DNA of 64,000 bases from Ulota crispa (taxonomy: Eukaryota; Streptophyta; Bryopsida; Orthotrichales; Orthotrichaceae): positions 12,372,539-12,436,538 of the forward strand of contig OY987248.1 of assembly GCA_963920765.1 (NCBI GenBank). Direction: 5' to 3'. A program made the translations under genes and the position numbers. Shown in pieces: positions 28,746 through 58,246 of the stretch. Under the pieces are notes generated by a model that was not told the DNA's origin, made no database searches, and saw only the letters and a list, made by a program, of their open reading frames with translations. How positions within the stretch are numbered: the first letter of the stretch is position 1; each line of letters begins with the position of its first letter.

Positions 28746-29657
28746 TTTGAGTTGTTTTGAGATTATTTTGGTGGTACATATTTTTTAGGACAAACATACC
28801 AATATCTGGGTGTTTGCAAGAAACAGCGGTCCTATTTCTTGTCCCCTCCCCCTCTTCCGAGTACTTTTAGGGTAGTATCTTTTGCTTACAATGTCTTTTA
28901 GGGTAGAAATTTCATATTAACGTCAACATAGAAGTTACCAACGCTTACTAATTTTTTGGGTTTTTTAAAAGTTACTTTACTATTTTTAACTATGCCCCAA
29001 TTACATGTCTACCTTTGTTGTTTTTGAGGTTTTGAGTACTACTTTGTGCCGAGATTAGCAAATCTGAGACCATAAACAAGGAAAGTTGTTCATGACGTGT
29101 AGTTACAGGTATCTGGAGAAGGGTTTGACAAAATTCCAAATTCCATGGAGTTTACACTGCCTCAAAGTGGCCTTCCTATCTCCCTTGATTGGTCATTGGG
29201 AAACATGAATCTCAACAAACCAATTATACTAGCTGAAGGTACTACATTATGTCCACAATGGCCATTTTTTCCTTTAATTATTTATTATCATCCCCTAATT
29301 ACTAAAATTGAAAACATGACAGCCTACAAAATCCTGTAATTTTCTGTCTTAAGGCCTCCATAGCGGTCCTCCGGCGTTAGTGGCATTACGTAGTACCACG
29401 GCTCAATGACATCTACTCCAACTAGGACATTAAGTTTCATCCTTTCATAGGATTGCCGTTAATAGAAGTTGGCTTCCTATCGTCGCTTTATGGACAAGGA
29501 GTAATTACATCTAGCAGTTTAGAAATCATTGGTCATTTTGCCGCTTGTTTGTTCTATTGTTTTGTATCGTCAAACTTTGATTTCATTCTGTTTTGCAGCG
29601 GACATAATTCTTTGAGGAGTTTGTCAATATTGATGACCTCTTCCCCGCAAAGATGCA
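28746..29657 (+). other. Left flank of the large element, with an exon-like stretch
   Basis: From about 28,800 the sequence is visibly less AT-rich. An acceptor-like TTACAG at 29,102-29,107 is followed by an open stretch on the + strand to about 29,240 (containing DKIPNSMEFTLPQSGLP) ending near GGTACT. It reads like coding sequence but I do not recognise it, and it could be an upstream exon of the transposase gene or another captured exon. Another CAG acceptor at 29,597-29,599 precedes the transposase start codon. Confidence 0.4.
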
Positions 29658-32600
29658 ATGCCGCCACCAAGGGAGAAGCGCGCTGAGCCACGGACTCGGC
29701 TAGAAGCTGAGCACATAATCGATGAAAGGTGGTGGCGATAATGGAGGGAGAAGCAACGAGCATACCATGAGCGGCTGCATGCACAACAAAACATTGCGAT
29801 GGAGGGTGTGCACTCAGCGTCCTCCCGTGCAATGCTTCACCGACGTGCTGCAGAATTGTCCAAAGATTTGATTTACCACTTGGAGAGGTTATCGGAGGAG
29901 GACTTAAGAGCGGCCGTCCTCAACATGGTGTTCAAGAACCAGATTGTGCATATGTTGCTTCTAGACTACTACCCCACTCTTGAGGACATCATAGCTTAGT
30001 GAGATATTCTTCAAAATATCAGGCTGGATTTGCAGGCCATGAAGGTCCCTTATTGTAGTGGCATGCTCACAAGAAAGCGTGCAATCTTGGAAGCTGTTGT
30101 ATCAAATTGGAATTGTGACTCCAGCCGGATCCATAAGATCCTTGGAACACAAAAATCCAATGTGGACTCTGCCACGCTTAGATTAGTTGAAGCCAAAGCG
30201 GGAACATCCTTCCATTTCAAGGTACCAGGTCGCAAGAAACGCGACAGCGGGACAGGCGAGGAAGTGAAGGACGTTGTCATAGCGTGGTGGACATGCGAAA
30301 CAAGGATGAGTTCTAACTAGAAACAAGTGTGCAAAAAGAGGCTTGGTCGAATGCTGTACGAACGACATCCTGCACACTTGCTTATGGAGAGTTAGGTACT
30401 AACTACACTCATGCCCAGCTGCAGTTTTACCTTCATTTGTTAAAGATCAAGTTCCACTAGAGATTGGCATGACTGGTAGCATATACATATTGCGTATCTT
30501 TCCTTTACATTCTCCACTTCTGTATGGACTCCACTGCTCCTGTAGTTATTATTCCCTACATCACCTAATGCATGTATTTGATTACGGATTGCTCTTGTGC
30601 TTATTGGACGGAGCTGTCGTTATCAGTTCATGGTGGTTTCCAGTTAGTCCTTGCTATTCAAAGAGGTCTTCCTTGTGTGTCGTGAGTGCCTACTCTTTCC
30701 ATGTTTAGCATCATATTCCACTCTTTCTTGGGTGCGCTATGAGAATTCCATATTGGTAGTAATACCCGTCATATTACACAAGGAAAACTTGAGATACTAT
30801 ATACCTTAATGATATAGTTGCTTTGCCCGTCATTAGTACTGTGTCCACATTGCAGTACAATACGCTGAATAATATCGGTTAGCGTTTTAGGCAAAGTACT
30901 ACGCCTGTACTTCATGAAGCTCCAGTACCCTTACTTTGGTATAAGTATGCTGACATGATTCACTTAGACCTACGTAGCGTTGACAATAAATTTTGGGTGC
31001 ATACCATATATTGTTAAAGGTACTACGCATTTACTCGGACTACTTTCAGGAGTTCCTCATCACTTCGATCAATTTCATTACATTGGTGTTGGCACTAAGT
31101 AGTGGTACAATCAAAAATCCGAGTACCTAACTATGTGCATGTCCTACAATACTATTCACTGCTTTAGGAACCTAGTACGTCAATCTCTTACCTTTACTAT
31201 GCTTTAAACTATTGAGAACTCTAGTCTTATGATACTACCTAGTGGATGTGCGTGCTAGTACTTCCATCCCTTACTTTCAATATTTCACTTTATACTATTG
31301 AGAAATTGAGTCCTACTATGTATTGCTGTTGTGATTGCAAAATAGCCTTAGGTACCGATCCAGTATGTGGTGCACCAATGTAGTATCTAATTGCGGTACC
31401 AGTTTTGTTGTTTAATGCTGCCACACGAGTACTTAGTACTAGCACTACCATATGCATACTATGTAAGACTGTGACGACTTAGAACTTGTGCTCTGTAGTA
31501 CTGACGTATACTACGTGCACGCTACAGAGTACTTTGTCGCCGCTACGTCGCCCTTCCAGTACACTGTTTTATACTTAGTCCACCACGTAGTACTGCCCCG
31601 TTCTTTGACCTTGGATATTCATTTACTTTGCAGGCCGAATTATTCCAGCAATTCAAAGATGGTTTTCCTCTCTTCCATATCAAGATACGATCCTTCATCA
31701 AGCTCTGCAATTTCTTTGTTATTAGGTGCAAGGAGCAAAATGTGTGTTGTTGCTGTCACCACATTCAAGTCTTTTTTCTTCTGCAAGTGCTAAATGCCTT
31801 TTGCGACCCTCAATTAGGTGCACATGTTCAACTCCACTGCCAATGTTGGTGTGGTATTCGTGGTTCAAGTGTAGACAGAACATGCCACATCGGGGCGACT
31901 CAATTATCCGGAGTTACGCAGATGTGGATGTTCGTCATCTGTGCCAAAGAATAAGAATCCCTGTTTCACAAAATCAGGTGCTCATTTTGCCCACCAAAGT
32001 CGTTCATTGAGATTACATGACCTTCAACTACTGCCTTAGCCTCCAGAAATAATGACTAAAGTACATCTTCATCTCAGTTGCCTAACAGGGTTGTGTGAGT
32101 GGTGCGGGGTTTGTACGTTTCCATTGTATCCACTTGAGAGAGTTGATGGACCTCATCGACAGATAAAGTGGAAATAATTTGAGTACAAAATAGAGAAAGT
32201 GCCAGATTTGACCAAACCAAGAAAATAGATCAAGGAGGTTGAGCAGCTCACCTGTTTCTTAGCTTTCATGGAATTCCTTAGACCGATTTTACAAATTTTT
32301 GTCGTCCACAATTTTTGCGTACGCTGGCAAGCCAATCAAGCAAGGCTAGCAAATGAGTCTCTGCCTTGAGGCTCCATACTAACAAACATTGACTTTGCCG
32401 AAAACTACTCTTTCCAGATCCAGAACAAAATTTAGTCCATGTATTACCACTCCACGCAAGTTACAATAATGGTGCAAGTGGTCTACCACGTGGAGGAGGT
32501 GGCAGAAGAAAAGGAGTCTAACCCAATGCTCATACGTGAAATGCACTACTAGATTTCAGACGACAAAACCCACGACACACTATTTGTGCAGCACTGCATG

Positions 32601-34527
32601 CTTGAACACTAGCGGTGGTTGATAGATCAAGGATGCGTCCCAAATATGCACCTTGTCTTTAGTGAAGGGTGCACTACTCAATTTAAAGGTGCAAGATCTC
32701 TGTATTTTGTTGCAAGGTATTCTCATCTATGTCAACCCCGACCATTTCCCCTAAGTCATGTCCTTCTGTCCATCTAGGTAGCCGATTGATTAACGCCATC
32801 TTCATTTCTATGGTTTCAAGTATCCATCTTTGATGGGTGGCTGCCGAATGATATGGAACTTCTATGGTTCTGGTCTCGGTAAGGGAGAGTGGGATGGCGC
32901 TAGAGCTGTAGTGAAGAGAGCGCTGCGACAAGAGCAACTCCGGAACACAAACAGACCATTGCAAGATGCTCGGGATTGTGTAACATTCCTGGTTGGTGCA
33001 ATGGGGAGGCTTGTCCTAGTGCAAAATGGTGGGATGAGGTATGTCACACCAAAGCACGTCGTAACCTCTTGAATTAATTTCCTTTCCTCTGCAATCATGA
33101 ACATACAATTAGCCAGAATTTAATTATATTTCTTAGCGACAGATAAGCTGTCCTTAATGTTAATAGCATATGACATGGTTAACAGACAATTCAGTCTCAA
33201 AGTATTGTGTGCTAATAGGCCCTTCAGGAGGACAAAAACATTCTCTACCTCCAAAATAAACTTCCACTGATTAATGTAAAGAAATCATGAAATGCAATTC
33301 TACTCCCCATAATGTTTATTTTGGTCAACAATTATTAAGAGAGATCACAATATAAATAGTGTCAGTGAAATAGCAAGCGTGGCATTACATACGTCTAAAC
33401 CACTGTTTGCTATTTCAAGTACCTACTTATATTGTCCTAATACTGAGTATTTAGGCGCAACTAATTATTGACATGCACAATTGTGAGAGTCATATAGCCC
33501 CTAAACCGGCTCAAATTGGTGCATTTATCAATATTAGTGACTCATGAAAAACTAATTCAGAAAAATATAAATAAAGAGGTACGCGTGTATATTTATATTA
33601 TAAATAGTTCTTGCATTTTCCATTTGGTATACCCAACATGAACAAATACTTGTTCTTTTCATCATTGTCAACAGGACTTAGACTAATGAATACCTTCTTT
33701 TTTTTAATACAGGTTAGGTCAAACTTGCTTTCAAAATCTTCTTTGGTTACAACTTAGCGTGTACACTTTCATATTTTCTATGGTTCAACAATCCCAAGTT
33801 GTACCGTTACTTTCATCTAGTAGGCGTGGATGACGTAGACCAAAGCAACTCCCATGCGTGTCGTCAGGTACATGGATCTTCCAAGTTCTACTCCGTGTTT
33901 GCACCCGATTCAAGGGATCCTACAAAGGTCTTCGTCTGCCCCTACAGCTATTTCTGCAGACCATGCGTGGAGGAGGATTTTGGAAGCTGCAAGCAGCTGT
34001 CAAACGTCCTAGACTAGAAAGTCTACAAAATTTAACCAATAAATGTTACTTACGCATAGACTATTCTAGAAACTGAGGAAGACAATGGTGAAGGGAATTG
34101 GAAGTACAAAGCAGATGAGAGTAGCATGTTAGGGTTGGTACAACCAGGCGACAACTTTGCTATTCCAGTAGAACTAGACAACACAGAAGGAGTGTCCTTC
34201 TATATTCTCTAATGTCAATCCAAAAAGTATGTTGTCCAAGAAGACTTTGAATGTTCATGGGGGGGGGGGGAAAAAAAATTCAAAAGAGGTGACTTCATCA
34301 TCACGGCTACCTATTACCAGAAATGAGGAAGGCATGGAACTTACAACTACAAGTACTTGAGAAACTCTAGACAGGTGCATGTAGACGCGGATATTGTCCT
34401 AGCCTGCAAATTTCAAATGATACCAATATTACACAAAGTAAAGGGCAGTGATCATCTATACACATTGCCACTTGAGAGCGTCCATGTCAATACGTGCGCG
34501 CTAGAAGAACACCACAAGAACAATTGA
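29658..34527 (+). pseudogene. Spliced DDD/E transposase of a Sola-like family, broken by nonsense codons
   Basis: The frame opens at ATG 29,658 (MPPPREKRAEP). Exon 1 runs to 30,395, and a 1,238-bp GT/AG intron (30,396-31,633) leads to exon 2. Conserved blocks follow in order: WWTCETRMSSN and LYERHPAHLLMES, then CCCCHH, CEWCG, NIDFAENYSF (32,388), ISDDKTHD (32,553), VFSEGCTTQFKG (32,655), GLGKGEWDGARAVVKRALR (about 32,869), and a C-terminal part (33,799-34,527) with LVQPGDNFAIPVELDN and ATYYQK. The ordered acidic motifs suggest an RNase-H-fold transposase, and I tentatively place it near Sola. The frame changes once or twice (near 31,900, and at about 32,720-32,820 where an intron may lie). 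In-frame stops include TAA 29,739, TAG 29,997, TGA 30,000, TAG 30,318, 30,393, 32,037, TAA 32,175, TAG 32,226, TGA 32,367, TAG 32,433, 32,550, 32,610, 34,015, TAA 34,033, 34,210 and TGA 34,324. It is not functional as read. Confidence 0.78.
30396..31633 (+). repeat. Transposase intron rich in AGTACT/GTACTAC words
   Basis: Between about 30,720 and 31,600 words of the form AGTACT, GTACTAC, CGTAGTAC and ATACTA occur roughly every 40 bp on both strands. The same words recur at 34,730-34,830 and 41,760-42,500 and are rare outside 29.3-42.5 kb. They may be transposase-binding motifs of the large element. Confidence 0.6.
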
Positions 34528-35131
34528 GTGTGTTTGACTATGATCGACATTTTTGTCAACGTGGGTTACGTCTGTGAAGAATTTCCCAACATACACCTCT
34601 AGAAGAAGTCTCAATTTACAATACTGCCGTTGCACTTGTTTATTTCATACTTGATAGTACTAGGTGGGGCTTCAAACTTCTATGACGGCCTAAGATTATC
34701 CATACAATCCGTCAATTCTATCTCTAGTAATGAGGGGTACTACGTAGTCCCATGCAGTGAATCATGTCACAAATTCTACTATGCAATACCGCTTTAGTGT
34801 GAAATACTAAAATGTACTCAGTAGTCCTACATAATACAATATTGACTTTGAAGATGGTTTTGATTTAGAAGGTGCAGGTATGTGTAATAGAGGTTTAATC
34901 CTAAATGTCATAGTGGGCTTTGATGCATGCGTTCTTTGAGCTAGACAGTCCATTCCTACAGTTCAACAAAAGAATGGCTAGAAAGTATAGTTCATTCATA
35001 GTGTACGCACTTTATATCTACGCGTTCCTTCCGCAAAGAGGCTTCATTGATTTCCGTGCAAGAAGCTTACACCAACTTTTGACTCATTCATGCGTGAACT
35101 TGTAGTCAATGATGTTGCAGAACATAAATTA
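34528..35131. other. Spacer between convergent transposase and SET genes
   Basis: The transposase frame stays open after TGA 34,525 until TAG 34,600, so the true end could be either. A GTACTAC/CGTAGTCC cluster lies at about 34,737. The short frames at 34,920-35,105 (+) look like chance. Confidence 0.45.
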
Positions 35132-36490
35132 CTATTGCCTACAAAAACGATTGCAACAAGCGCAATTGAATGGGACCATCCCAGACTCTACACTCTCAAA
35201 CTCTACCCCGTAATCCCATGTCAACTCCTCCTTGGCTGCACTATCCCTATTAGCAAAGAAGGCAATCTGAATTGAAGACCACTTTGAGAAAAAATAGAAA
35301 CATTTAGAGTAAAGCAAGGCACTTGCTTCACCATTTTTTCCTAACCCTAATGAACAAGCAAATATTCTTACATGATGTAGCGTAGGATTTGTATTATCGG
35401 TCCAAACTGGCATCTCGCGTTGGCATTGTAGCACCTGCTAAATATGAGAAAATCAATGGTAGTATAACAAAGACATGGATATTATTCATTAGCAGTTGTG
35501 TCTGGTTACCATACCTATGGTTCATCCACCGAGCTATGTTAGTGTAATGCCTTGCGTTGATGCCAAGCAACTTGTCATCCCCCTTCACGGACTTGGATTG
35601 CTAATGTGCATCTAGTAAGAATGTGAATCTACCACCCTCTCCTTGTCTAATCAACACCTCGTTGGTGACAATTTTGCTTGCGCACTTAAATAGAAATGAA
35701 CCTCTGCAAATGGATTGTACGGACCTGATCCCCCAACCTTTCTAAGCATTAGCAAGGAAGACCTGCTAGCAACCCGGTCATGAGTAGTAGCGACATCATG
35801 TGAGTGTAGGAAACAAATATCAACAAATAAATATGATGAGTTTAGGTTATGTAATCAAACCTCAAATGGGTTCGTCATTCCTCTCTGCATCACTCAATTA
35901 CCGCATTTGGGGCTGCAGTGGCATTTAGAGGTGCATTCTTTAATGTATACACGTTGAACGTGACCTATGCAGGCCCCCCTCCAACAACCTTTGCATAGGA
36001 AGTCTCATGAGCAGTGGACCATTGAACTTGTGTCGCCGTCTCTGCAATCCAAAAACTATGGAAACAAACAGTTGAATTAAAATGCTAAGCATGGTCTACC
36101 ACTGCATGTTAGCACCTTATCACTTAAATGCTAGAATACAGCTTACAATGGTACCATTGAATCAAGTGAAACTCAAAATGCTTAAACAAAAACTGGAGGG
36201 CATTGGAGACATACCTACTGGATGAGCTGATCCTTTAGTCAACCATCTCTACCATACGCAAACCCTCCACTTACTACACAATAGCAGCAAGCACTAGTCT
36301 AATTGGTACATAAAGTAGTACAAGTGCATAGCGTATTAGCTGAAAGGGACTTGATTAGGGGTCCACACAAAATAGATGAATGTACAATGGGAAATTTCGT
36401 ATACTTGTACGAGGACACATCCCAGTGTGGGGCTTCATGGACGCTACCACATCGAGAGCAGCAAATGGGAATGCTCTCAACACCCTAGGA
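35132..36490 (-). pseudogene. SUVR-type SET-domain histone methyltransferase, decayed
   Basis: On the - strand the exons in transcription order are: a pre-SET part (about 36,490-36,215, with TLCTCTTLCTN and CCYCVVSGGFAYGRDG), exon 36,041-35,861 (CKGCWRGACIGHVQRVYIKE, CHCSPKCGN, VMQRG), exon 35,762-35,515 (KGWGIRS to GINARHYTNIARWMNHR), exon 35,434-35,372 (CYNAN, EMPVWTDN) and last exon 35,266-35,132 (IAFFANRD, EELTWDYGVEF, post-SET CACCNRFCRQ). This order is that of plant SUVR1/2/4 proteins, which methylate H3K9. The NHRCxxAN and ELTWDYG motifs of the SET cofactor and substrate pocket are readable. Breaks are stops at 36,299, 36,239, 36,005, 35,894, 35,742 and 35,601, a one-base frameshift within 35,372-35,434, and a phase mismatch between the first two exons. 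It is convergent with the transposase, about 0.6 kb away. Confidence 0.8.
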
Positions 36491-37309
36491 GCAGTCAATC
36501 TCGGTGCCTTCCTATGTTGGTAACTGATTCTTGAGACATGGGTACTAGCAAAAATATTCACTTGGACACAGCAAACCATACCGTTACAAAGAAGACATAA
36601 AAACCGACTACGTTAACACGTGTACAAGTGCCACTCAATTTAGGGAGAGCAAACCATAGCAATTGAACAAACAAGACTAGCAGTAAGGGAGACCGTGCAC
36701 GTCTTTCACACACATACTGAGTTCTTCAACTAGTATGTGAGAAGAAGTAAGTGGTATTAATCTTACTTCTTTTATCATTTCAAAGTAGGCCTATATGGCT
36801 GCAAAGGAATTGAACATTACAAATTTCTTATCCAAAAAATAGAAATAACATGTCACGACACTACACCATACATCTTGCGCGCCGAGGTACGTTTTGGTGA
36901 CCAGCCTCTGCATTGCATGATCATGCGAAGGTCTAATCTAACAACACACCGGACCAAGCTCACTTCTTCATTACCTTGCAATTCTTGGACCCACGTCTCG
37001 CTTGAGGACCCTCATCTTCGGCATCGCCGTTGGCTCTACCAACTACTTTGATGAACAAAGTGAATGCTTGCAGTCCAGAGATCTACATCCGCATGGTGCC
37101 AGAGCTACATCCCTAGTGCCGTCCTCGTTGCCTTTCATGCCGCTATACATCCAAGAGGGAGATGAATCGGCTACCGCTTGCGTAGCGGGCTCCTCATGCA
37201 CTACAAATTCAAGTGGTGCAACCTCTCCGCCCTTTCTTGAACATACCACGGAGACCCGAGTATTCAATATTCTAATAGAGCTTTCAAAAGAAAAGGTAAC
37301 ACATTCCAA
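36491..37309 (-). pseudogene. Probable N-terminal exon region of the SET gene
   Basis: An open - strand stretch at 37,309-37,043 contains TRVSVVCSRKGGEVAPLEF and a cysteine cluster PCGCRSLDCKHSLCSS that could belong to a pre-SET-like or linker region. It lies just upstream of the recognisable SET exons in the same orientation. Splicing between them is not established. It may be part of one larger gene that starts further upstream. The assignment is inferred from position. Confidence 0.4.
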
Positions 37310-38430
37310 TAGTTACTCAGTGTATTGGATAGGTGACTATGGACTAAACCGCTTTAACTATTCATTGAATGTTATTTTCATTAATCTTATGCTGAGAATT
37401 GTCTAAAACCAACTATATAAAGAGAATGTGCTATTCATGTACCCGACTATGTTATAATCGCAAAAGCAGAGTAATAGATAGAAAGGACTATATCCGTTGA
37501 TCACTCTCGCAGTTTAGTCAGTTTGCTCTACAGCGGTTTTAGGGTTTGCAATGAATTACAAATGCATGCAGTTAAATGAATTTGTTTAGATCATTAGTTC
37601 AAAGCCCAATTGTCAAGGTAGCACAGTGTATAAGAGTCTGACGGTAAAGAATGTATTATCGCAACTTGGTCAGTACTGGAGAGCAACCACCACTTGCAAC
37701 TTCTTTTCACATGAAATTGATATTGGGAGCATATTTGCTTATTTAAGTATTCTGTAATAGAGTATAGCACTATGGAATTTCCCCTCAATAATATATGATA
37801 CGGCAGAAGTGAATTGCGTTGAAAAGTAATAGACCACTATGCTTTGACCATGTAAGTCCTTATATTTTTTACTTTCGCAATTCAAAAAATGTACTCAGAT
37901 GTGTAATGATGTGAACTTTATAGCAACAGCACAGTAAAATCGCTTCAGTTCTCTTATTGGTCATGACTCCATGTATTGATTCAAACCATGTAAATTATGA
38001 TGCAAATTAGAAGGGGACCCCAATTCAAAGCAAATGCACCTATTACAAAAATTCAAAATCTCATTTAATGGTCAGTGCACTTGCCGAGGTTCAGTCACTG
38101 CCACATCAAATCTTCTTATCAATAAGTGCATGTTTTTGTATGCGAATTCATTCCGTGCACGGTTACTTACAAGTTCACGTATTTAGTGTGATTAGCGGTC
38201 CTTGCAAGACAACTAATAAGATCTACAAATAATATAGTGGATTACAAACAACAAATTGAGGGCACCTTAATCAGTTAGTACTACATAAGACAAATTATTT
38301 CCTTTCCTTGACAATTGTCATGCTACGTGATCTAGATGTGCAGTAAGCACACAATGAGGAAGTTCATGGCATTCAATGACCCCGTCGTCAAAGAACAAAT
38401 TAGTTACATATATTCTATACTTGCAATAAT
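37310..38430. other. Spacer or intron between decayed - strand exons
   Basis: No exon or repeat was recognised. AT content is higher than in the flanking coding blocks. Confidence 0.4.
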
Positions 38431-41400
38431 TCATAGACAATCATTGTGGAAGACATATCCGGATAAAATTAAGTAGAATATAACAACAAGAAATGCAAGG
38501 AAAAGTTTCTTACCGCTATTGAGTTTCTGCAAAACTCTAAGTGCCTCCTCAAAAAACTCCATATAAGCGTCTTTTCTCGGCTCCTCCCTACTAACTCCAA
38601 GAGCAGTTTTTGCAGGCGCAGCAAGACTGGATCCCCTTGGCATGCTGGCATTGACTTCTCCGCAAACCTTTTGATGCAAATAGCACGCAAAAAGAATATG
38701 CATCAGAAAAGATCACTTTGACGAGATTCCTTTCTAGGCAGCTAGAAGGACATGTGGCAAGGAGTAAAAACCCACCTCCATGTCATTATCTACCGGCTTA
38801 GTGTCTAAGACGGACAACTCCTCATCAGTAAGGTCTGTTGTTGCTTCAGTGTAGGCCAAAGGATTTTGATCGACCTTGCACTCTTTGTCCACATCCTCCA
38901 CCATAGACGCAACACCTAAACTACTCGCAATGCCATGGACTTTGTCGTCAGGAGCGTCAGTGCTAGAGGGGGCAACCACTGCACTTGGAATCGTCTCTAA
39001 AGACGGTGGGATGAAAGCGGGAGACAAGTGCGTGAAGTCGGAGGGGAAACTTAGTGACACACGCTTCCCTGGAAGACGCATTCCCCGGTCTTCAGCTTTT
39101 GCTAGGGATGTGGAGAATGTGATGTCGGATGCCGAAGCTGTACCCGCAACACCACTTGCACCCACCATGTCGATACCTGCCACGTAGAGAAGCAAGGATA
39201 TTGACGTTAATAAACCACACAAAAACCGGCCCCGTTGAACTCTAGCAAGAGTAGCTTAAATAGTTCATAGTTTAGTTCAAGAGCTGAAGTCATGGCTCAA
39301 AACATAGGATGAAACTACGCAAGTTCAGTACTAACCTAAATTTGGAAGACCTCCAGTGGGCTTCAGTTGAGCAAAGTCAAGTCTAGACCCAGGAGTGATA
39401 CTGTCACACGTGGCTGCACTTTTGTTGTTCTCGTCTACACCAGAGAAATTGCAAGCTTTGAGCCACATTGGAGAAACTCAACCATAATCTAAAGCCGCGT
39501 AGTCTTAGGATTCTCTAAACCAAGAAGTAGCGCACCACGGGTGGTAGAAGTGCTTGCAACTACATATCAATGCGTGCCAGTATGGAAAACCATTTGAGCA
39601 TAAAGCACAAGCCGGTGCAGGTGGCATTTCTCCAAAATTTGGCATTGAAAGAGTGTCAAAACTGGGCGTGGAAAGTGGCGCCAGATGCACAACGCAGCCT
39701 AGACGTCTCGACTGTAGAAGCAATTGCTCTTCATGCAGTGCAAGCAAGTACCAACTCAACAATTTTAGGCGTCGGCTAGTACGCACCTGCTCCACCTCTA
39801 ATAGACGCTTCTGCATCATGAGGTTTGCAAGTTTGTCCAAGTTGTTACGAAGCATGTCATGCATCTGGTTGTCCCCAACAACTTTTTGACGCCACCCTTC
39901 CATGTCGTCGCCGATGGGGAGATCAAATGTAGTTCCAAACTTTGCGAACTGCTTTACTAACTGCTCAACCATGGCTCTGCAAAAGGAAGACTCCTTGTCG
40001 GCATCGGCCAAACTTGTCGTGATGTCACCAAAGTCGTCAACAAGATGTCCACCTCTCCCTCGACTTTATTTAACACAGTCTCCATATTGCAGTTCCTAGA
40101 AAATACGCATCGTTAATAAGCGTTGGTCATTCATGGAATATGTGAAACTGTACATGCAAATGAACTAATAGGTTGGGTCAAAACTGAAAAGGGAATTCAA
40201 TGTTAAATACAGTGGATTTTGCGTTTACCTTGACAACAGCATGTCAAAGTCGAAGGTGGGGATTGTGAACTTCGAGTGAGGGGCAATGTCATCTCCATGC
40301 TGGTCCTCCACATGAAGTGGTTCTGCGACGGACCGGTTAACCGCTGCCTTGTTATCCTTCTCAAAGCTTCCTTGGATTATGGAGTTCAATTCTGACGCCA
40401 CATTGAGGTTGTTATCTTTTGCTGCTTTGAGTATGAGGAGCCAAGTCCTCATGCAAACCCTATAGTTGCTCTACTGAAGCTGGTTAGTGTTTGCCGCAAA
40501 GTCCGCCCAGTCAATGCTCTCACCGTGTTTGTGTTGTAAGACGAAACCCATCGCTAGTTCCTTTGCAATGTGATGGGCCGGGATTTCTTTTTGGTAACAG
40601 AGGCAGTAAAGAGACTCCACTTCTCGTCGCTCAGCGGTTGTTAATCTTTTTGCTAAGCTGTAGCCGTTCCAACTCTTGTCAGGGCCAAACACTGCCTCCA
40701 TTTCAATGACTGGGACGTGCTTACCAAGTTTGAGCTTGTGCGGGTTGATGCCGATGCTGCTCAGCTTGAACTTGTAGCAAAAATCTTCCTTTGACAGCAT
40801 GTGAGGGGGCCTTCTCAAAGGCATCTGCAGATCATCCAATGCCTTCCTGCATTGGTCGGCCGTGTACCTCTTCTTGGCATGCTTTGGTTGCTGGAGTTCA
40901 TACAATCAACAAAGGAGTTTAGTACACTGATCAAAACTAGTGTGACTATGCTGGACTTACTCAACAAGCATGCAGGTATTATATCTCTTAATTTTGCATG
41001 ACCCAAAAAAGGGGAAAAGTCTGGATTGGAGACTTACCTTGAACTTTGCTAGTCTGTCAAGGAGGAGTTCACGTCGTCGTCGTCGTCGTCGGTGTGATAG
41101 TCAGACTTGTTTGATTCATCTTTCCTCTTTGACCCCCCAAGCTTCACCGATGTTGACGGAGGTCCAGCCGATGGAGCAGGAGCTTTGTTGATATCATTGA
41201 CCTCACGATTGTTGGCCTCAGCAGTCGGAGGTAGAAGTTAGTGGACGCCATGCTGTTGACCGTCGCCGTCAATTGAACTATCTTTGGAGGTAGCACTCCT
41301 TTGCACCCGGGAACAATGTCTTTACTGCTCGCTAGGGTCAATCCAACATCCTTCTCCACCAAGGGGGGGCCCCCCTCCTTGGATTTCTTTCCTCTAGAAT

Positions 41401-41773
41401 GGAAAGTCCTCCTGTAGGTCGTCGGAGCCCCAGCGTCGTGCCCGTCAACTGCCAATTGCGGGATTGGTGCGTCACCGTTTCTCCCCGCTAATACAGCCTG
41501 ATGCGCAACATCTTGTAGACCACCCCACGCGTGCAGCTTAACTGTGTCAGGCTTTCGAAAGTCCCTAGATGGGGGAACTGGTCGAGCATCTTGGAAAAAA
41601 ATATGTTTATAGAATTCTAGAAAAATCAACGACAACAATGTCCTTTCATGAGTACATGTTGTGCGACGACAGGTGGGTTCAAGGTCTAATGGGTTGAATG
41701 TGAAGTCGTGCATCTCTTTCAATTCCAATAATGCAGTAGTAGTATTTGACGTCCTATATTTAGCACTATGCAA
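38431..41773 (-). pseudogene. Unrecognised zinc-finger gene of the large element, several exons
   Basis: The - strand coding blocks, in order, are: 41,595-41,030 (Pro/Ala-rich linker then an acidic DDDDDD run, donor at about 41,030), 40,888-40,230 (opens QPKHAKKRYTADQCRKALDD and includes PVIEMEAVFGPDKSWNGY and LCYQKEIPAHHIAKELA, one in-frame TAG before SNYRVCMRTW), 40,095-39,350 (helical region MVEQLVKQFAKFGTTF then a zinc finger CALCSNGFPYWHALICSCKH followed by YHPWCATSWF), 39,180-38,780 (Ser/Thr-rich, acidic) and about 38,690-38,515. The finger has C-x2-C, C-x-C, H and C spacing like RING/PHD-type fingers but I cannot name the family. The stops inside (for example after WFRES and after DYAALDYG) are one base from Gln or Arg codons. 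It lies on the same strand as the SET exons and may be the 5' half of one gene. Confidence 0.6.
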
Positions 41774-42500
41774 TACTCTATGAAATACTATTTAATACAA
41801 CTAAGTATTGGGATGTGTGGTTATGGGGTACTACGTGACGGAGGAAGCAATTGGAATTGCAACTACGGGACCCTCAACTCTTACTACTGGACCATCCTAA
41901 AACGTTCTTGGAAATGCATGTAGAGTACTAAATTATCCTTGAAGGAAGTCGTTAGTGTTACACCACAAAGGGAAGATACTAGGAAGTTGTATGGGAGTAC
42001 TAAGTGATGGGAGCTCATGTTCATACATTGACGCGGTAGATTTTGAGAGTATCTTCAAGTGGTACGGGGCATTGCCTAAATAGTGGGATCAGCAATGGAG
42101 GACTACGTAAGAGCTCAAGCAGTCTTTGGCAATGATTATAATACTGATAGATTTTAGTGGCTCCAACGGAAAGAGTTCCAAGTAATACTAAGACCCAAGA
42201 GTGCTAGTAGGATGGTCCTCATTATCGTTGTTTTTTGCAAACAATGACTTGCAGAGGAAGGGAATTGCGGGTAGTGGATGATGCAGGGGTTGTTACTAAG
42301 GACATGTAGGACTACGGGGGGCACTTCCGGCAGTTCGAGGCGCAAACTAAACATGTCAAAGGAGGAAAAGGGCAATAGAGGTGTAAACAAAGCAAAGTAA
42401 ATGGACTATGTAATGCACATGAGTACTATACAGGGTATTTACTAATGCGGGATTTAGCAGCCAAGTACAGCATGTGTTACATGGGATACTACAAACAACC
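41774..42500. repeat. Second zone of GTACTAC/ACTACG words
   Basis: Words such as GGTACTACGTG, GAGTACTAA, GACTACG and ATACTA recur about every 40-50 bp, as in the transposase intron. This supports reading 29.3-42.5 kb, or more, as one element. Confidence 0.5.
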
Positions 42501-43779
42501 TATACTATTGATTGGAGTGTTGTCAAGGACATGGGAAATAGATTCCCTTCTAAAAGTTGGCGCAGTGAAACTTGGAACGATGACCAGGATTTGAAAGTCG
42601 CGCGTATCCAAACTAAGGTAAGTTTGTGAAGAAGTTGGAAATGTGAAGTAATGGGGTGGGGGGGAGGGGGTTGGGGTTGGGGGGTTTGTAGGCAAATGGA
42701 TGGCTACAAAGTTGAGAATAGACCAATTCATTAGGCTATATTACCGAAGGAAGCCTAACCAGCCAGATTTTAATCTTGAACGTAATAATACAAAAGTATT
42801 ATTGGAAGAGAGAAATATTGAAACAAAAGTTCTTGTTGTTCATTTTCATCTGAGGACCCTGTGAAGGTGTTTGTGTCTTTGCTTGTTTAGACCATTGGTT
42901 CATGTCCTCGTCATGATTATTTTGAGTTCAATGAATGAAAATGTGAAGGGGATAATGTAAGCAGAAGTTCCATTACAAGAGAGGGAATCTTGAGATAATG
43001 ATGTCAGACACCTAACTTCAAAGCAATGAACAAGCCAACTCAATGGGAGGACGTAGGTAAGACGTGAGACCATATTAATGAGTGTAGAGTATGTATTGTA
43101 GTTTTGGAAAAGCTATGTGTAGAATTTTTTTACACTGGTTACCTTTATATCCTTATCCTTCTCCCTTGTGATTGTAGATGTTCTGAATATGAGTAGAAAC
43201 AATACTTATAGTATCTTGGTTTCTCATAGGAGCCCTGGTTCATTATAGTAGCAGTTGATTTTCAAGGAAATCTGAAATCAATGAAAGGACTGTTCATGGG
43301 TGGAAATTCAAATACTGACTATGAGACAACATTATTTTCATTGTAGTGAAGTTGTAGTTGATGAGACATATAGCTTGAGAGGACTTTGACTGTTTTTGGG
43401 GTCGGTTTCAGTGGATTCCACGTAAACTTTGTAGCAATGCAAAAATGAATTTACAAATTGCACGCAACTGAATTTAGTGAAGTTCCCATGCAAATCCTAA
43501 GCTCCTAAAGATAGGTACAGCTGAATTCAACTGAAGGAATTTTTTAATAGTTCCATGAAGGTTGTTTGTATGTGCTTCAATTCGTCTAGTTGTTCCATTA
43601 GGGCAATGGAGAAATTGGCTTATAGAAGTCATGGTAGCCATGTGCTTCAATATGAGAGGAATGAGGCAATGAATTAAAACTAATTAACCGAGTTAGGGAC
43701 AAGTGTAATATTTGAGTAATCCTTGTTTACTCCAAGTCCAAGGGAAGACCTATACTGGTCGTCTAGCCTCCTAAGCTTG
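42501..43779. other. Unassigned DNA, probable right part of the large element
   Basis: A G-rich tract (42,655-42,690) is the only notable feature. No exon or terminal repeat was found. Confidence 0.35.
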
Positions 43780-44610
43780 ATTACCCTAAATCTAGTAGTA
43801 GTTCAAGTAATATGTGAAGTATGCAACCGTGAACCCTAAACCCATCGGCGGTAAATCAGAGAAAGAGGAAAGGGTGAAATTCAAAAGGGCAGTAGTAACC
43901 AGTATCTTAAATCCTAAATCCAACCTCAAATGGATCTTTATGGAACTAATGAATGCCAAGTTATTTCAGAGAGAGTATACAACAGAAGTGAACCTCTAAC
44001 CTTCAGAAATACAATGTGATGGCTAGAAAAGTAGGGCCTCTAAAATAGAAGCTGAACTCCTGAACGCTGTGGCAAACCTGCTCAAGACCCCTACATTAAC
44101 TTGCCAAAATCATCTTAAGCAAACGGACATTGAATGCAAAGCCCTGAACCGTAAACCCTAAACCGCTTTGAAAGGAATGAACCCTGAACCCTGAAGCAAC
44201 GACAGAGAACCAACATGTGCTTCCCGTAAATAAAACCCTAAACGGCCACTTCAATATAAATGAGAAGTAGTGATTCAATGGAGACTTACGGTGGCCATGC
44301 TTTAAGCAAATGGGAGCGTCGAAGGTGAACACGCGCCTAGCAATCCCCAAATAGTCAATCCTTGAACTGCCTGCAGGGAGCTGATGGAGTTGGTCCTGAA
44401 ACTCCAACTTGCCGCTCCCTCTGTCAAAATACATGAACCCCAAAACTCCAAGTCCACGATGCCGTACCCTAAACCTAGTAATAGCAGACTACCCTCAGGA
44501 ATTAGAAAACCCTAGCACGAAAGCATGTGCACTGTAATTTTGCACTTGCGCAAGGTAACCCATGCCACACCCTCTGTTGCAATCAAAAAAACACGACAAA
44601 GGAAACCCTA
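43780..44610. promoter_or_regulatory. Cluster of telo-box-like AAACCCTA motifs
   Basis: ACCCTAAA or AAACCCTA words occur at about 43,787, 43,834, 44,155, 44,232, 44,463, 44,505 and 44,603, with variants ACCCTGAACCCTGAA near 44,180. Telo-boxes are known plant promoter elements bound by Myb-type and GH1-type factors. Here they surround a candidate first exon on the - strand. A regulatory role is inferred. Confidence 0.45.
44290..44443 (-). CDS. Candidate first exon, unrecognised
   Basis: An ATG at 44,443 opens a 51-codon stretch beginning MGFMYFDRGSGKLEFQDQ and ending FDAPICLKHGH at a good donor (CACC|GTAAGT, 44,290/44,289). It could be the first coding exon of the - strand zinc-finger/SET gene, but no linking exon was found in the 2.5 kb before 41,773. 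The encoded segment matches no domain I know. Confidence 0.4.
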
Positions 44611-45585
44611 AGCAGTGATCCTTACAATGCGGCAATGGAGACATTCAAAATCAAATGGGGCCCGCTTTTGCAGGGGATGAAAATTGTGTCAGTGAGTGAC
44701 ACGTGACGCGGCCTGCAATACACCGCACGCCACCATTTATAACACCCAACCTCTTGGCTTGACACTTGTTGCAGTTCCAAAAGATTTGGTGTGACATGGA
44801 TGGTTCAAATTGTCAATGTTAAGGCACTCTAGAGTACTACAAGTATTGGTAGCACTGCAAATGCTAAGCCTGGAAACAGCACTTTTGAGACAAAACCATT
44901 AAGTGTTTCTTGCAATCACCCATCTCCACTTTTTTTGAAGTTATTTTATTCTAGAAGCATAAAAAACATTCTATACAAAATAAATTTAAAGCAATAGACT
45001 AAAGTAATCATTAGCCTACAATCTCAACCAAACCTTGAAGGATCACTTTTTGAAATTTTAAGGTACATCTTGAGAAAAAGAGTCTTTTATTGAACCCCAT
45101 GCATATGGATTTTTTGATGTTAAAATCCACTCTAAGGCATCTATTATGTTTTCCTATTTTGATAAATAAAAAATACCTTGTAATAGTTAATTTGACTTAA
45201 AAAGTATTTTAACTACTTTGCCATATGTTTATGCATTTTTGCATTTTAAATTCAAAAATAGAAACCACCTTATAGTAACTCTAACATGATTTTTGAATTT
45301 TACACCAATGACCTTTAAGAACCAAACAAAATATGAAGGCAATTTCTTAATAAGATTTCACGTGCTCTACAAATATAATGATGCCATTATAAGAATGTTG
45401 ATGTCTTGTAAACACAATCACATAGTTTAAACATGAAAATGAAAAAAAATGTATAAAACTTAATTCTACCTTTGTAGGTAAAATATGCATATCTGTTATT
45501 GGTCTACTTTGTAATCTAGCATGTTTACTTGAACCTTATCTCTTACTTCATTGTAGGTCACAACTTATTGATATTGGATATGATC
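44611..45585. other. AT-rich intergenic DNA, nothing recognised
   Basis: Composition returns to the AT-rich background. The large element therefore probably ends near 44.6-44.9 kb. Confidence 0.4.
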
Positions 45586-49427: not shown

Positions 49428-50833
49428 AGCATGAGGTTTTGAGTACCCATCTCACTATTTAAGAACCAACAAACCTTTTGTTTAGCATCTCTTACGCATG
49501 GTTCTTACAATTTCAATGATTTTGAACTTTGAAAAATCTTTGTGAACAAATGCTTGCAGTTGAAACCTTGAAATTGATGCCAATATTCTTGGTTTACACT
49601 TCTTACAGTATTTTTTTCAAAGTTAGTAAATTGTTTTACCACTCCAAAACCCTTATTAACACGCTTATGGGTGCGCCTGCCTTACCCCTTCTAACACCAA
49701 ACGTGAGCATACCCTTAGGGTATGTGGGGCTGGGTAAGGTGCTTTAGAACGTTTACAACTGTGCTGGCAAGCCCCATTCAAAGATGGGACATGCAAAGAG
49801 ACGCTGGCTTCATCTGATGGCGAAGGGTTTTATAGTAACAAGACGGTCAATTATTGATCATCAGAGTTCCTTGGTCTAGTCCCAGGAAAAAGGATAGACT
49901 GATGTCTAAGTGGGTCACAACATCATGACCAAGCTTCTGTGGACACGTTGTTGCTGAGAATCGAAGCAAAATGTGTGCATAAGGTGAAATGTGTTGGACA
50001 CCCTTTCTTAGGGTTGTAACTTAGCTCCCAACTTGAGATACATCCCACTAATCCCACCTTGTTCAGGGGACATTCATTCCAAGGGTGAATGAAAAAGTGA
50101 AGTATAAAACATGACCTAGCTTGTTCAGGAGAGATCGAAACATAATTCATGTGACAATACCCCTATAGTTGACAGCACATTCCCACAGAGAGGAGAGAAA
50201 GGTAATTGCTAAGGGATGTGCATGCATGGAACGAAAAGATCCCACCCTCCCCTTGGGGTTTAAATATTATCACTATTTTGAAAATTATAATCGCATGGGA
50301 GCAAATCACAACCCTCACAAGTTTAAGATATGACCTATCAGCCGTATCTATCAGCCGTGTCATACGCCACATTGGCTCAGGGTGAACATTACACCCCTTA
50401 GGCCAAACACTTCGAAACCTGAACTTCATAAGCTTAATGCTTTCTTCCTCCTGTAGGAATGTACCCTTGGTAACATTGCATCAACTAACTTACAAAGCAT
50501 TGCAATTCTAAACATACTATATCTTGAAATGGCTGCTCAACCACTGCATTACTTACAAACATGTCAATCCATCACAATTCAAAATTTCCCCACTAGCCTC
50601 AAGCATATCTACTTCGATATTTCCTTGGTTTAGCCCCCTAGCACTCTAGCACCAGCCTCCTCTACCTTATCTGCTCCCAAACCCTTGTGAATCAATTTGC
50701 AGCTAAAGTCCCCCTAGCATGGACACAATAAACACACACACATATCAACAGTCACCACTAGTCAGTCCAAATATTTAAAACTACCCCACCAAGCCCAAGT
50801 AGAGACCCCAACGCCTCCAAAAAGGCAATCTTC
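49428..50833. other. Intergenic DNA, nothing recognised
   Basis: No coding or repeat feature could be supported. The frames at 49,529-49,747 (+) and 50,163-50,429 (-) have no family resemblance. Confidence 0.4.
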
Positions 50834-51045
50834 AAGCCAAAGTAGAGTCTATCTTACAAAAACGATCCCTCCCTCAGCAAATTCAAATCCTAACCAAAAC
50901 TTAAAAAGGCAGGGCACACATGTTTTTAAAACTACACCACCAAGCCAAAATAGAGTCCATCTCACAAAATCGATCCCTCTCTTAGCAAATTCAAATCCTA
51001 ACCAAAACTTAAAACGCAGGAAAACACATACATGTTTTCACCATT
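50834..51045 (+). repeat. 108-bp tandem duplication
   Basis: A unit starting AAGCCAAA-TAGAGTC and containing CGATCCCTC, TTAGCAAATTCAAATCCTA and CATGTTTT occurs at 50,834 and again at 50,942. The two copies differ by a few substitutions. Confidence 0.8.
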
Positions 51046-51339
51046 CGTTCCAAAGGTTTGAAAATCAAACCAAGCCAAGCCAGACCAATTCAATTCAAAA
51101 AAACTCCATCCATGTGAAGGTTGTGGATGCACTTCACTTCCCTGCAATAAATCCCTTCCTTACCAAATGTCGAAACCCTTGCCAATCAAATAGTGCGCTC
51201 TTGAAACTCGTTCATCACCGCTTGCAACTATTCAAAACCAAAACCTTACCAAACTTTGTGCATGTTTCTAGGGGAGACCAGACCTAGAATTTATTTCCTC
51301 CAGGAAGCGAAAGAATATAGATAGTTGTCAATAATGAAT

Positions 51340-52796
51340 CAGCAAAGCCAGGAAGAGAGGAGAAAGAAAAAGAGCGAGAAAGAGAGAGAGACACACACAA
51401 CGGCATCATGGACGGACCATGGACGCCGGGGATTTTTTAGAGGGAGTTTTACAGGGCCGTAATAATAGTAGTACCGTGGTAGGAGGCTAGCCAAGGGATC
51501 ACGGCCAAGCCAAAGCCAAAGCGAGAGAGAGACAAAGGAGAAGAAGCCGAGAGAGAGAGAAAGCACTCAAAGCAGTCGCGTCGGGGCCGTGAGGCTCCTT
51601 GCGAAGAGGTTCATATACTCGTGGAATAGGTTTTCGTGGCATATTTATCTCGAGCTTGCAGACGCCAATTGCAGCTAACGAAACATCGCTCTCACTTTTA
51701 AGTGCGCCTAAGGAGGCCTGGGGTTTCGATTGCAATTTTTCTGGTCGGAGTGCTCGGATAAACGAGCTGTGCGGCTTGTGCGGCTTGTACTGTGCGTTAG
51801 GCAGCGAGCGCTTCATGCTTGATTACGGCTTGCCTATCGGCTTGAAGAATCTCTCGCACTTTATGTGAGAGTCGAAGGTGGCGGCGTTATATGCTTTGAT
51901 TACGGCTGCTTACTGGCTTGAAGAATTCTCGCACTTTATGTGACAATCTGAAGGTGGCAGAGCTACATGCTCGATTACGGCTTGCTTATTAGCTTGAAGA
52001 ATCTCTCGCACTTTATGTGAGAGTCGAAGGTGGCGCCGGATCTGGAAAAACTCTAGCGCGCGCGTTCGTTCCTGCATCAGCAAGATCTCATATCGCAGGT
52101 AAGCGTTTAGATGCAGCTTGCGTTGGTTGTGGAGTTATTTAACATTTATAAGTTTTCTCTCGACGAAGATGTGAACTAGAAATTCATGTAGTGCCGTGTG
52201 TGTGGTTTCCGGCATGTGAAGTTAGGAAGCGCTGCTCTGTGCTGTGCTGTGCTGGATCGGTTTGAGTGCGGCTCGGTATTTTGGCTGGAAGTATCTCGTG
52301 CATTTGATGTGAGGTGAAACCACCTGTTTGAAATAGTTATAGTAAGCCTTGTCCAGGCCTGGCTTGGTTTGAAATAGTTCTACCAAGCCTGGTCCAGGTC
52401 CTGGCCTGGCTTGGCTGCATCAGCAAAATTTTGCATGGAAGGTTTGTGTTTGGATGCAATTTGTATTGGCTTTTTTTAGTTCTTTTGGAACATTTATAAT
52501 TTCACTCGATGTGGTGCATGAATTGTTTCGTAAGTATGAACTGAGAGGATGTTTTCGATCGAACTAGAACTGTACTGTTGTTGCAGTGTTATGTCGAGCA
52601 CGGTCATATTGCGCTTTTTTTGTGTTTGGAGTGTTTTTCTAGGTGTGCGCGAGGTAGAGGCTCTGTGTGTTAGATTGGCTAGAAGATGATACATGGTTTA
52701 TAGACTGTCATCGTTTATAGGGACAGGCAGATGTGCTGTTGTGATTTTAGGGGATATTTGTGGAGATAAGTCAATGCTTAGAACATGTGAGGACAT
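51340..52796 (+). promoter_or_regulatory. 5' region of the JmjC demethylase gene
   Basis: A purine-rich GA tract (51,357-51,392 and 51,521-51,560) is followed by GC-richer sequence with three 76-bp repeats (51,816-52,037), then a candidate 5' donor CAG|GTAAGC at 52,097/52,098. This looks like promoter plus 5' UTR with a leader intron ending before the coding exon. Two copies of a GCCTGGTCCAGG-type block lie near 52,350-52,420. No TATA box was placed with confidence. Confidence 0.5.
51816..52037 (+). repeat. Three 76-bp hairpin-bearing repeats in the JmjC gene leader
   Basis: Units start at 51,816, 51,892 and 51,968. Each has TGCTTGATTACGGCTTGC, GGCTTGAAGAATCTCTCGCA and CTTTATGTGAGAGTCGAAGG. 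The segment CTCTCGCACTTTATGTGAGAG can fold into a short stem-loop in units 1 and 3; unit 2 is weakened by mutation. A partial relative occurs at about 52,280. Confidence 0.85.
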
Positions 52797-52874
52797 GTGC
52801 AAAGGTACTTGCTTGTGCTAGACGCCTTCGTTCCGTGGAAAAACATCTCCTTTGAAATGTGGCTGCTGTTGAAT

Positions 52875-55800: not shown

Positions 55801-58246
55801 GGGATAATAAATGACAATTCCGGTTGGCCTGCAATGTACAAGCTGAAGGACTGGCCACCAACGAACTTTTTTGACGTGCGACTTCCACGTCACGGATCCG
55901 AATTCTATGCTTCATTACCTTTCAAAGAGTACACCAACCCGAAGGCAGGAATCCTCAATCTAGCGACCAAGCTTCCAAAGGAAGCGATTAAACCTGATTT
56001 GGGGCCGAAATCTTATATTGCATATGGTTTGCGAGAGGAGATTGGATATGGTGACTCCGTTACAAAGTTACACTGTGACATGACTGATGCGGTATGTCCC
56101 GCAACAGACGATATATTAGCTTGATCCTGCTGACTATTTGTGTTTGCAGTTTAGATTTGATCCCGACTTTCAAGTTATACAGTGAGAAATGTTTCTGGTC
56201 ACTTGACAAATAATTACTTGTCATGTTGGATGTTGCAGGTTAATGTGCTTTCTCACACGCAAGAAGTCAAACTTAGTTCACAGCAAAGACAGAAGCTAGA
56301 TGTTGCACGGAGGGATTACCGAGCGAGTATCAAAGAGCGAGAAGCCAAGATTCTAGCTGGAGAATACTCTGCGAAGATGGATAATTCAGGCAATGGCACA
56401 GCAGCTGCACTTGAAACCAATGCCAAAAGTGCATCTAGCAAGAAGCCAAGAAAACGTAAAATCAAGGACAATATTCAGGGAGATTCAAATACAAACGGGT
56501 ACGACGAACTTCTTCAAGAGCGCTATGATCAGGCTGAAACAGTGGCGAATGACTCTGAAACAAACGCAGTGAGAGATGCAAATGTGAATGAGGGTTCTTG
56601 TTCCGAGTCAACCTATGGAGGGGCTTTGTGGGATATATATAGGCGAGAAGATGTCCCCAAGTTGAAAGAGTACTTGTTAAAGCATATGGCGGAATTCCGC
56701 CATTTTGACGACAAGCCCCTTGATTGTGTAAGCGACATACTGCTTTTAATGTTGGTTTGCTTTCAATATCGGTTTGTGCGTAGAGTATCCGTTTCTTTGG
56801 TTACAGTTTTCCTTTCTTTTCTTGAACCTACATCGGAACTTTTCTACATCGGAACTTTTGTGCTGCAGGTTCACCACCCCATCCACGACCAAGTCTTTTA
56901 TCTGGATGAGGAGCATAAGAAGAAGCTGAAAGAGGAATACCGTAAGTTTCAAAAATCTAGTGCACGTTGTTAGTAAGGTAGCCAATACTTGAATCAGAAT
57001 TGTATGGCCTGAGGGAGGATTTTGCACTCTTTGGTTGATTCAGATTTATGTCTGTTGCTGACTGAGAGGTTTTTGGAGGTCTTTCTTAACTCTCATTCGT
57101 CTCAAGTTCTCTGCACATATACGTAGTAGAATATTGGGAGCTACAAAGTGTGCTATAAGACTTGCCACAAATTGACAGGCTTCAGACCATTTTTTATCTC
57201 CAATTTAGAAATTAGTTAAATTTTTCTCACACTGGGGTCTTGCTTTCCAGTTTTTCTTCTGCAAAAGCAGTTGTTTCGTGTATGAGTCTATGTTGATAGA
57301 TACCTAGGTTTGATTGGGGACTGGACAGTTTCGTGAAGCATTCCATATGCTGTCTTGATTCTTGATTGCGCTCCTTTGTATAAAAATTCTTTGGTTAGTA
57401 GTTCATTATTATTACTAGAGGTATACCTGGCCTTTTGTTTATCAGTGCTACGTTTGACGCTGTGTAGAAGTTGAGCCATGGACTTTCGAACAGCACGAGC
57501 AAGAATCAGTGTTCATCCCAGCTGGTTGTCCTCACCAAGTACGCAACTTGAAGGTAGGATTTTCTCACCTTTAATGTACTCTATGAGGCTTTTGTATTAC
57601 GGATGTTCAATATGAGAATCATTTAGCATCTTCAAGAAACTGATGTAATCGACTGTTTGGGTGATGCAGTCTTGTATCAAAACGGCTTTGGATTTCGTTT
57701 GTCCGGAGAACGTAAAGGAATGTTTGGATTTGACAAACGAATTTCGCCTCCTCCCTGTAGACCATCGAGCAAGGGAAGACAAACTGGAGGTGCTTCCTCT
57801 TACTTTTCAAGTCGCTTCGTTTCATGGGTACTATATTTGAATCCAGTTCACTTAGCAAGTAATAATTTAAGGCATTGCTCACATTTACTCTTGTGCGGCT
57901 ATATTGCAGGTCAAGAAGATGATACTTTATGCAACTATGGAAGCTGTCCGTTATCTCCAGGATGGGATAGAGTGAGTAACATACTCTCTGAATCACTAGG
58001 TCTCTCAAAAGCCAAGAAGTTTTAAATGGATGATGTTGAAGTGTGGTGATTACTTGAAACTGCACGTATTGCTTTATCCTCCTTTTTATGCTGAATTTTC
58101 TGCATTTCTGATTCTGTTTTTTTTCTGGCAGAGATGAATCGGACGATGAACCCGCTTGGGCAACTAAACCTAAAGCTAAACCAAAACGCCAGCCAAAACG
58201 CCAACCGAAAGTTACACCAACCAAATCGAAAAAGCGCAAGTCGTGA
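52875..58246 (+). CDS. KDM3/IBM1-like JmjC H3K9 demethylase, 13 exons
   Basis: The exons are 52,875-53,429, 53,790-53,944, 54,051-54,150, 54,255-54,381, 54,473-54,530, 54,676-55,666, 55,759-56,091, 56,239-56,727, 56,869-56,941, 57,468-57,553, 57,670-57,789, 57,910-57,971 and 58,132-58,246. All junctions are GT/AG and the phases close exactly, giving about 1,087 residues. An in-frame ATG at 52,797 would add 26. Residues 1-185 are basic and acidic low complexity. A RING-like finger follows ([30 protein letters not shown], about 208-280), then a Cys-rich segment ([14 protein letters not shown]), and JmjC from about 584. The iron ligands appear to be His767 and Asp769 ([10 protein letters not shown]) and His983 ([10 protein letters not shown]). 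A basic insert (KKPRKRKIK) lies inside JmjC and the tail is Lys/Arg/Pro-rich, probably nuclear targeting. Family members remove H3K9me1/2 and protect genes from silencing. It appears intact. Confidence 0.93.

Follow-up and report, generated by a model that had tools for sequence, protein, structure and literature searches.

Analysis of a 64,000-nucleotide stretch of the genome of the moss Ulota crispa (the window; C7:12,372,539-12,436,538) reveals a decayed but complete DNA transposon of 16.1 kb, located at 28,808-44,921 and oriented on the + strand, that of its transposase. The element carries remnants of a SUVR-type SET methyltransferase gene and of a zinc-finger gene whose product is predicted to be a coiled-coil protein with a RING-like finger. 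A large decayed transposon with these two genes as cargo was the original prediction, made from the window alone; it is now supported by recurrence of the cargo across the genome, by common ends, and by three SET-carrying copies with perfect 4-bp target-site duplications. It is virtually certain that the window element is a transposon with integral SET cargo. The best explanation overall, to which we assign a probability of about 0.8, is that it belongs to an old, large, Sola-like family in which the SUVR-type SET gene and the coiled-coil/RING-like gene are stable cargo.

The cargo genes recur beside the transposase throughout the genome. The 275-Mb assembly, with chromosome-sized contigs C1-C11, was searched with protein queries for SET (window 35,132-35,437; E up to 1) and for the transposase and zinc-finger genes (E up to 0.01). 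These searches returned 61 SET, 50 transposase and 72 zinc-finger matches, which merge with their neighbors into 58, 46 and 68 loci, respectively, the window included; these are minimum counts, since scoring was confined to the best candidates. At 41 of the 46 transposase loci, the opposite strand carries a SET match 4.4-11.9 kb downstream; at 37 of the 46, both SET and the zinc-finger gene are present. A SET match in any other position within 14 kb of the transposase was found at none of the 46 loci. When the SET loci were instead placed at random on those contigs, 1,000 trials gave 0.12 pairings on average and never more than 2. The original prediction had proposed a search for the same arrangement in other transposase copies, and with the window set aside 40 of 45 have SET and 36 of 45 also have the zinc-finger gene, with order and orientation conserved.

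The copies fall into two deeply split groups by identity to the transposase query, group A being window-like (42-74%) and group B more distant (24-35%). At 12 of the 46 loci, all of group B, the zinc-finger gene is matched a second time some 9-13 kb further along, and at one group A locus the zinc-finger match is split over 4 kb. Seventeen SET loci are not paired with a transposase match. The zinc-finger gene lies within 26 kb of nine of these, on the side where it would be expected, and the other eight are without either partner; the latter include a host SUVR gene (C1:31.49 Mb) and a 598-residue open frame (C9:6.93 Mb). Contig C11 (6.3 Mb, 2.3% of the genome) holds 7 of the 46 transposase loci, all of group B; it could be a small chromosome or a sex chromosome on which these elements accumulate. 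Two of its copies, at C11:5.56-5.58 and C11:6.12-6.15 Mb, have near-equal match statistics and are perhaps the product of a recent duplication.

The ends of the element and its target-site duplication could both be defined. Alignment of the window with 88 loci taken from the genome revealed that homology starts abruptly at 28,807-28,809 in many copies. The 5' terminal inverted repeat, GGGTGTTTGCAAGAAACA (28,808-28,825, + strand), recurs inverted with one mismatch at 44,904-44,921 (- strand), such that 17 of 18 bases pair. A perfect 4-bp duplication, ATCT, flanks the element at 28,804-28,807 on the left and 44,922-44,925 on the right (+ strand). The 3' terminal stretch of about 75-145 bp matches many other places in the genome; the query for this search ended at 44,921 and was blind to any stop in homology, and it was used only for locating the 3' ends of two copies. 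The limits first proposed, 29,100-44,610, thus fall slightly inside the true ends. The element was also predicted to be less AT-rich than its flanks, and its G+C content is indeed 42.1% compared to 31.3% over 10 kb of left flank and 31.5% over 4 kb of right flank. However, the window at 2-6 kb and 49-58 kb is equally rich in G+C, so composition alone is not specific to the element.

The same ends have been mobile. At transposase loci, 16 other copies begin at the terminal repeat or no more than 6 bases from it, and their flanks, compared by eye over 40 bases, differ; two further loci are too short to reach the 5' end. Alignments that start at the repeat and flanks that differ speak against segmental duplication. 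Two other SET-carrying full copies, C7:6,890,187-6,905,985 and C1:15,795,039 upward, have perfect 4-bp duplications (CACA and CTAT, respectively), such that all three full copies with both ends known, the window element among them, are perfectly duplicated. The 21-base terminal repeat, with up to 3 mismatches, has 2,335 matches in the genome (1,159 forward and 1,176 reverse), and the reversed control has none. Many of these matches come from short derivatives, about 730 bp in length, with the same ends. A search in which 40 of 1,729 first-look candidates were scored gave 41 derivative matches, of which 39 are 90-92% identical to the query, one is the query itself (100%) and one is 74% identical. 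In 19 of the full-length ones, a set that excludes three derivatives read earlier, the 4-bp flank positions agree at 83%, compared to 34% with shuffled partners (maximum 54% in 500 shuffles), and the duplication is perfect in 10. Duplication lengths of 1-3 and 5-10 bp were at background in the same 19 derivatives and were rejected. The inverted repeats are 18 bp in the window element and 22 and about 57 bp in two small derivatives. Beside the SET exons of copy L016 sits a nested 726-bp derivative (L016:2141-2866) that has these terminal repeats as well.

SUVR proteins are plant SET methyltransferases that act on H3K9. The remnant of such a gene occupies 35,132-36,542 on the - strand of the window, with a SET-N exon at 35,508-35,738, a SET-C/post-SET exon at 35,135-35,269, and conserved sequence, presumed to be pre-SET, that reaches upstream to about 36,542. 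It converges on the transposase across a gap of about 0.6 kb, and both the gene and its position are as first described. The window SET exon is under the Pfam cut-off (18.4 versus 22.4 bits), copy L013 has SET over the cut-off, and copy L028 has both Pre-SET and SET over it. When the exons of L028, the only copy compared, were joined with X at the stop, the closest PDB entries were the H3K9 enzymes GLP and G9a (E 6e-29). The host gene L135, which we take to be a SUVR, has the layout LDADW...NHR|C...ELTWDYG in common with the element SETs. The intron after NHR is in phase 2 and at the identical position in the host gene, the window and the B1 copy L131, indicating that the gene was captured as a genomic copy. 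Identity of element SETs to the host SUVR ranges from 38% (in the window) to 58%. Of 20 element SETs read by eye, 19 keep what we take to be the catalytic tyrosine (lost in L027) and 17 keep the NH pair (lost in L013, L020 and L022); among the four SETs of subgroup B1, the tyrosine is kept in all four and NH in three. Of the genome's 16 pre-SET matches, at least 7 fall within element copies, 2 of those 7 under the Pfam cut-off, and host SUVR gene counts could be inflated as a result.

The resemblance to SUVR4-type proteins, gauged by comparison with the host gene, covers Pre-SET, SET, the LDADW insert, NHRC, ELTWDYG, post-SET and the host intron. Unlike SUVR4, the element copies have no detectable WIYLD domain, and those compared with the host gene share 38-58% identity with it. 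A genome search for WIYLD (PF10440) gave a single match, at C1:30.107 Mb, and none near an element SET, although domains split between exons can escape such a search; that match adjoins a pre-SET match and has no element match close by. SUVR4 deposits H3K9me2/me3 and responds to ubiquitin in vitro through WIYLD, and SUVR1 and SUVR2 have no activity in vitro, according to the consulted part of PMC7218100.

Patterns of substitution and descent are consistent with SET having been maintained alongside the transposase. The ratio of nonsynonymous to synonymous substitution rates (dN/dS) for SET is 0.33-0.47 in all six pairs of four B1 copies; for the B1 transposase it is 0.43-0.84 in exon 1 and 0.19-0.47 in exon 2. 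Fisher tests on three of the B1 SET pairs, using approximate site numbers, gave nominal p values of 0.003, 0.025 and 0.086. These values show signs, at the sequence level, of purifying selection on SET in one subgroup, similar to that on the transposase. Distances between copies measured on the transposase and on SET are correlated across 12 copies (r 0.96; 0 of 2000 permutations), mostly reflecting the split between A and B1, and, within group A, across 8 copies (r 0.46, p 0.03). In a tree of 15 SET sequences (8 of group A including the window, 4 of B1, L028, the host gene and human GLP), the A and B1 SETs group together (87% support), apart from L028 and the host SUVR (66%).

The window transposase, predicted on the + strand, was recovered by tblastn in four stretches (29,661-30,419, 31,628-31,981, 31,917-32,729 and 32,806-32,970). 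The first is an N-terminal exon with stops inside, matched by the metagenome homologue P0001 (E 3e-20). The catalytic part, 31,628-32,970 (+ strand), also contains stops and, by alignment with homologues, includes a Cys/His block, IDFAENY, FSEGCTTQFK, which reads SDG in homologues, and GKGEWDG. A presumed C-terminal block at 33,794-34,531 (+ strand) recurs in conserved form at 17 of 18 group A SET loci elsewhere in the genome, L020 being the exception; the blocks of L019 and L013 have no Pfam match. With the group B copy L057 as query, 36 homologues of the N-terminal exon were found. The predicted model of one homologue, P0048, appears RNase H-like; Foldseek gave weak matches, one with E under 0.001, in which Argonaute-type RNase H folds mostly rank highest and no cut-and-paste transposase is prominent. 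Single transposase fragments gave no Pfam match above the cut-off, to Harbinger, MULE or any other family. The 5' homology of the B1 copies L051, L053, L054 and L055 starts at GGGTCAT or a GGTGATTGCA-like sequence, indicating that a GGGTSAT-like terminus is common to both sides of the deep split.

The element family probably belongs to the Sola superfamily. As described in the parts consulted, Sola elements make a 4-bp target-site duplication, encode a DDD-type transposase, have inverted repeats and in some cases exceed 15 kb (PMC10741241), and Sola1 is present in the moss Physcomitrella (PMC9033089). The element resembles them in its 4-bp duplication, variable-length inverted repeats and size, and its transposase may be of their DDD type, with Sola represented here by description only. 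In contrast, the same portions of these accounts mention no SET or RING-like cargo (PMC10741241, PMC9033089). Other DNA transposons do carry a SET histone methyltransferase, namely HarbingerS and MuDR families of the oomycete Phytophthora (PMC12730594, in part), which resemble the element family in this cargo but reside in a host of another kingdom; the transposases were compared via Pfam on fragments only. MuDR duplications are 7-12 bp long, according to the section consulted of PMC10741241. Membership of MuDR/VANDAL was rejected on a duplication of 4 bp, lengths of 7-10 bp at background and fragments without a MULE Pfam match. Harbinger duplications are 3 bp. HarbingerS membership was likewise rejected, since lengths of 1-3 bp are at background and the transposase fragments have no Harbinger Pfam match. 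The cargo had been thought undescribed in plant DNA transposons. No plant DNA transposon with SET cargo, no Sola-like SET case and no pairing with a RING-like gene was found in the openly licensed papers searched, a result that is not proof of absence, and none of the terms histone, methyltransferase, SET domain, Sola and moss occurs in the main text of the review PMC13317346. As far as this search reaches, such cargo is new among plants, but its kind is already known in oomycetes (PMC12730594, in part).

The zinc-finger gene, correctly placed on the - strand by the original prediction, spans conserved blocks at 38,525-40,902 with a RING-like end at 39,508-39,609. Its product is predicted to form a coiled coil followed by a finger, C-x2-C...C-x-H-x2-H-x2-C, that is RING-H2-like. 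The finger is under the Pfam cut-off (18.2 and 16.3 versus 27.3 bits), and the structure model is weak there, with blocks at about 48-69 pLDDT (predicted local distance difference test). Five metagenome homologues were found.

The non-coding DNA of the element is rich in the AGTACTAC motif. Counted as AGTACTA/GTACTAC, including overlaps, it has 29 starts between 29,035 and 44,834, of which 28 lie in 9.1 kb of non-coding DNA and one in 7.0 kb of coding-homologous stretches, marked by hand; the 47.9 kb of flanks have 5. The bias toward GTACTAC that had been noticed from the sequence holds: GTACTAC/GTAGTAC occurs 12 times in the 16.1-kb element versus 3 times in the 47.9 kb outside, and a first-order Markov model gave a mean of 1.4 and, among 300 draws, a maximum of 8. 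At 15 group A transposase loci, GTACTAC occurs at 1.36 per kb within the element and is absent from 5.6 kb of flank. Its density is 0.61 per kb at group A SET loci, 0.11 at group A zinc-finger loci and 0.47 at 13 group B loci, and three of the small derivatives contain it 2, 3 and 2 times. A comparable pattern is known from Arabidopsis VANDAL21, where the motif YAGTATTAY, mainly non-coding, is bound by VANC21 (PMC5735166, in part). The likeness lies in a family-specific short motif, dense in non-coding DNA, together with an element-borne chromatin regulator. However, VANC is no SET enzyme and acts to remove silencing, whereas the cargo described here resembles a writer of a silencing mark.

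Several observations weigh against the best explanation. The genes of the window element are broken; the selection analysis covers B1, whereas the window is in group A; and distances within the four B1 copies show no significant correlation between transposase and SET (r 0.27, p 0.36). In the three derivatives read first, two of them separate and one nested in L016, only 1, 3 and 3 of 4 flank positions match, none perfectly. The SET of L028, a copy at C7:12,235,160 and some 165 kb away from the window element, shares 58% identity with the host SUVR and 40-46% with other element SETs; being nearer the host gene, it points to capture having possibly occurred twice, and may represent a separate capture, gene exchange or slower evolution. 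Five of the 46 transposase loci (C1:17.20, C11:5.82, C6:18.66, C8:4.89 and C9:6.10 Mb) have no SET match, and the group A SETs that were read contain stops or frame breaks. The last two points would fit a SUVR gene picked up by chance, as in Pack-type elements, and copied passively; gene capture by plant transposons is well known (PMC13317346, in part). Passive copying is nonetheless improbable given that SET dN/dS in B1 resembles that of the transposase, that SET is kept in both groups despite a group B transposase only 24-35% identical to that of the window, and that the catalytic tyrosine is retained in nearly all element SETs. The broken window SET, at 38% identity to a host SUVR, could also be taken for an ordinary host pseudogene or a segmental duplication lying beside the transposase by chance. 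Conservation of order and strand at 41 of 46 loci, the differing 5' flanks of 16 other copies and the perfect duplications around three SET copies rule against this, and its likelihood is negligible. Equally negligible is an endogenous large DNA virus or Maverick-like element, as might be suggested by the large size and host-derived chromatin genes. The terminal repeats are short and number over 2,000, the duplication is 4 bp, and small derivatives exist. Moreover, when prokaryote and viral contigs were scanned for the pattern of the aligned N-terminal exon of the transposase, no relative emerged, and 20 fragments searched in Pfam matched no viral family over the cut-off, the sub-threshold phage and coronavirus matches having E values of 0.087 and 0.2.

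How a SET protein would serve such an element can be considered in light of its relatives. The transposase would cut at the GGGTGAT ends and would also mobilize the small derivatives. The captured SET protein would, most simply and by analogy, be an H3K9 writer; it would methylate H3K9, or compete with the host enzyme, on element chromatin and could thereby tune silencing of the element or its compatibility with the host. Judging from the sequence, there is an even chance that SET acts on the element's own chromatin state, and action against host or rival chromatin, or on a non-histone substrate, appears rather unlikely. Somewhat less likely still is that the SET protein is a counter-silencing decoy that obstructs the host SUVR/SUVH pathway or leads it astray, for example by competing with it, without silencing the element. 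The location of AGTACTAC in non-coding DNA (28 of 29 sites), like the VANC target motifs of VANDAL (PMC5735166, in part), is consistent with a decoy, as is the failure to find a host-type WIYLD near any element SET in a search that is weak across introns. However, a pure decoy would have no need of the catalytic residues, and most of these are retained. A more elaborate proposal, which we consider doubtful, is that an element protein reads the element's own AGTACTAC arrays and recruits the element's own H3K9 methyltransferase, setting its own chromatin state in a mirror image of VANDAL/VANC anti-silencing. The RING-like partner would perhaps supply ubiquitin, although the ubiquitin response of SUVR4 reportedly runs through WIYLD, which was not found in the elements. 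Alternatively, the motif may be a transposase binding site. SET may serve self-restraint, hiding or jamming of the host pathway.

Two further regions of the window, both on the + strand, lie outside the element. Long open frames at 50,718-56,970 presumably derive from a JmjC demethylase (KDM3/JMJ25-type), and broken frames at 3,043-6,768 presumably from a hAT-type transposase; in each region, three frames have no Pfam match.

Plants silence transposons through H3K9 methylation. An old Sola-like family that has kept an H3K9-type writer through deep divergence would make the use of silencing marks by genomic parasites testable, whether for self-restraint, for hiding, for cutting off rivals or for jamming the host. 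The two deeply split groups, the many copies, and the derivatives that have the same ends and motif provide natural replicates for testing how such a writer may be aimed.

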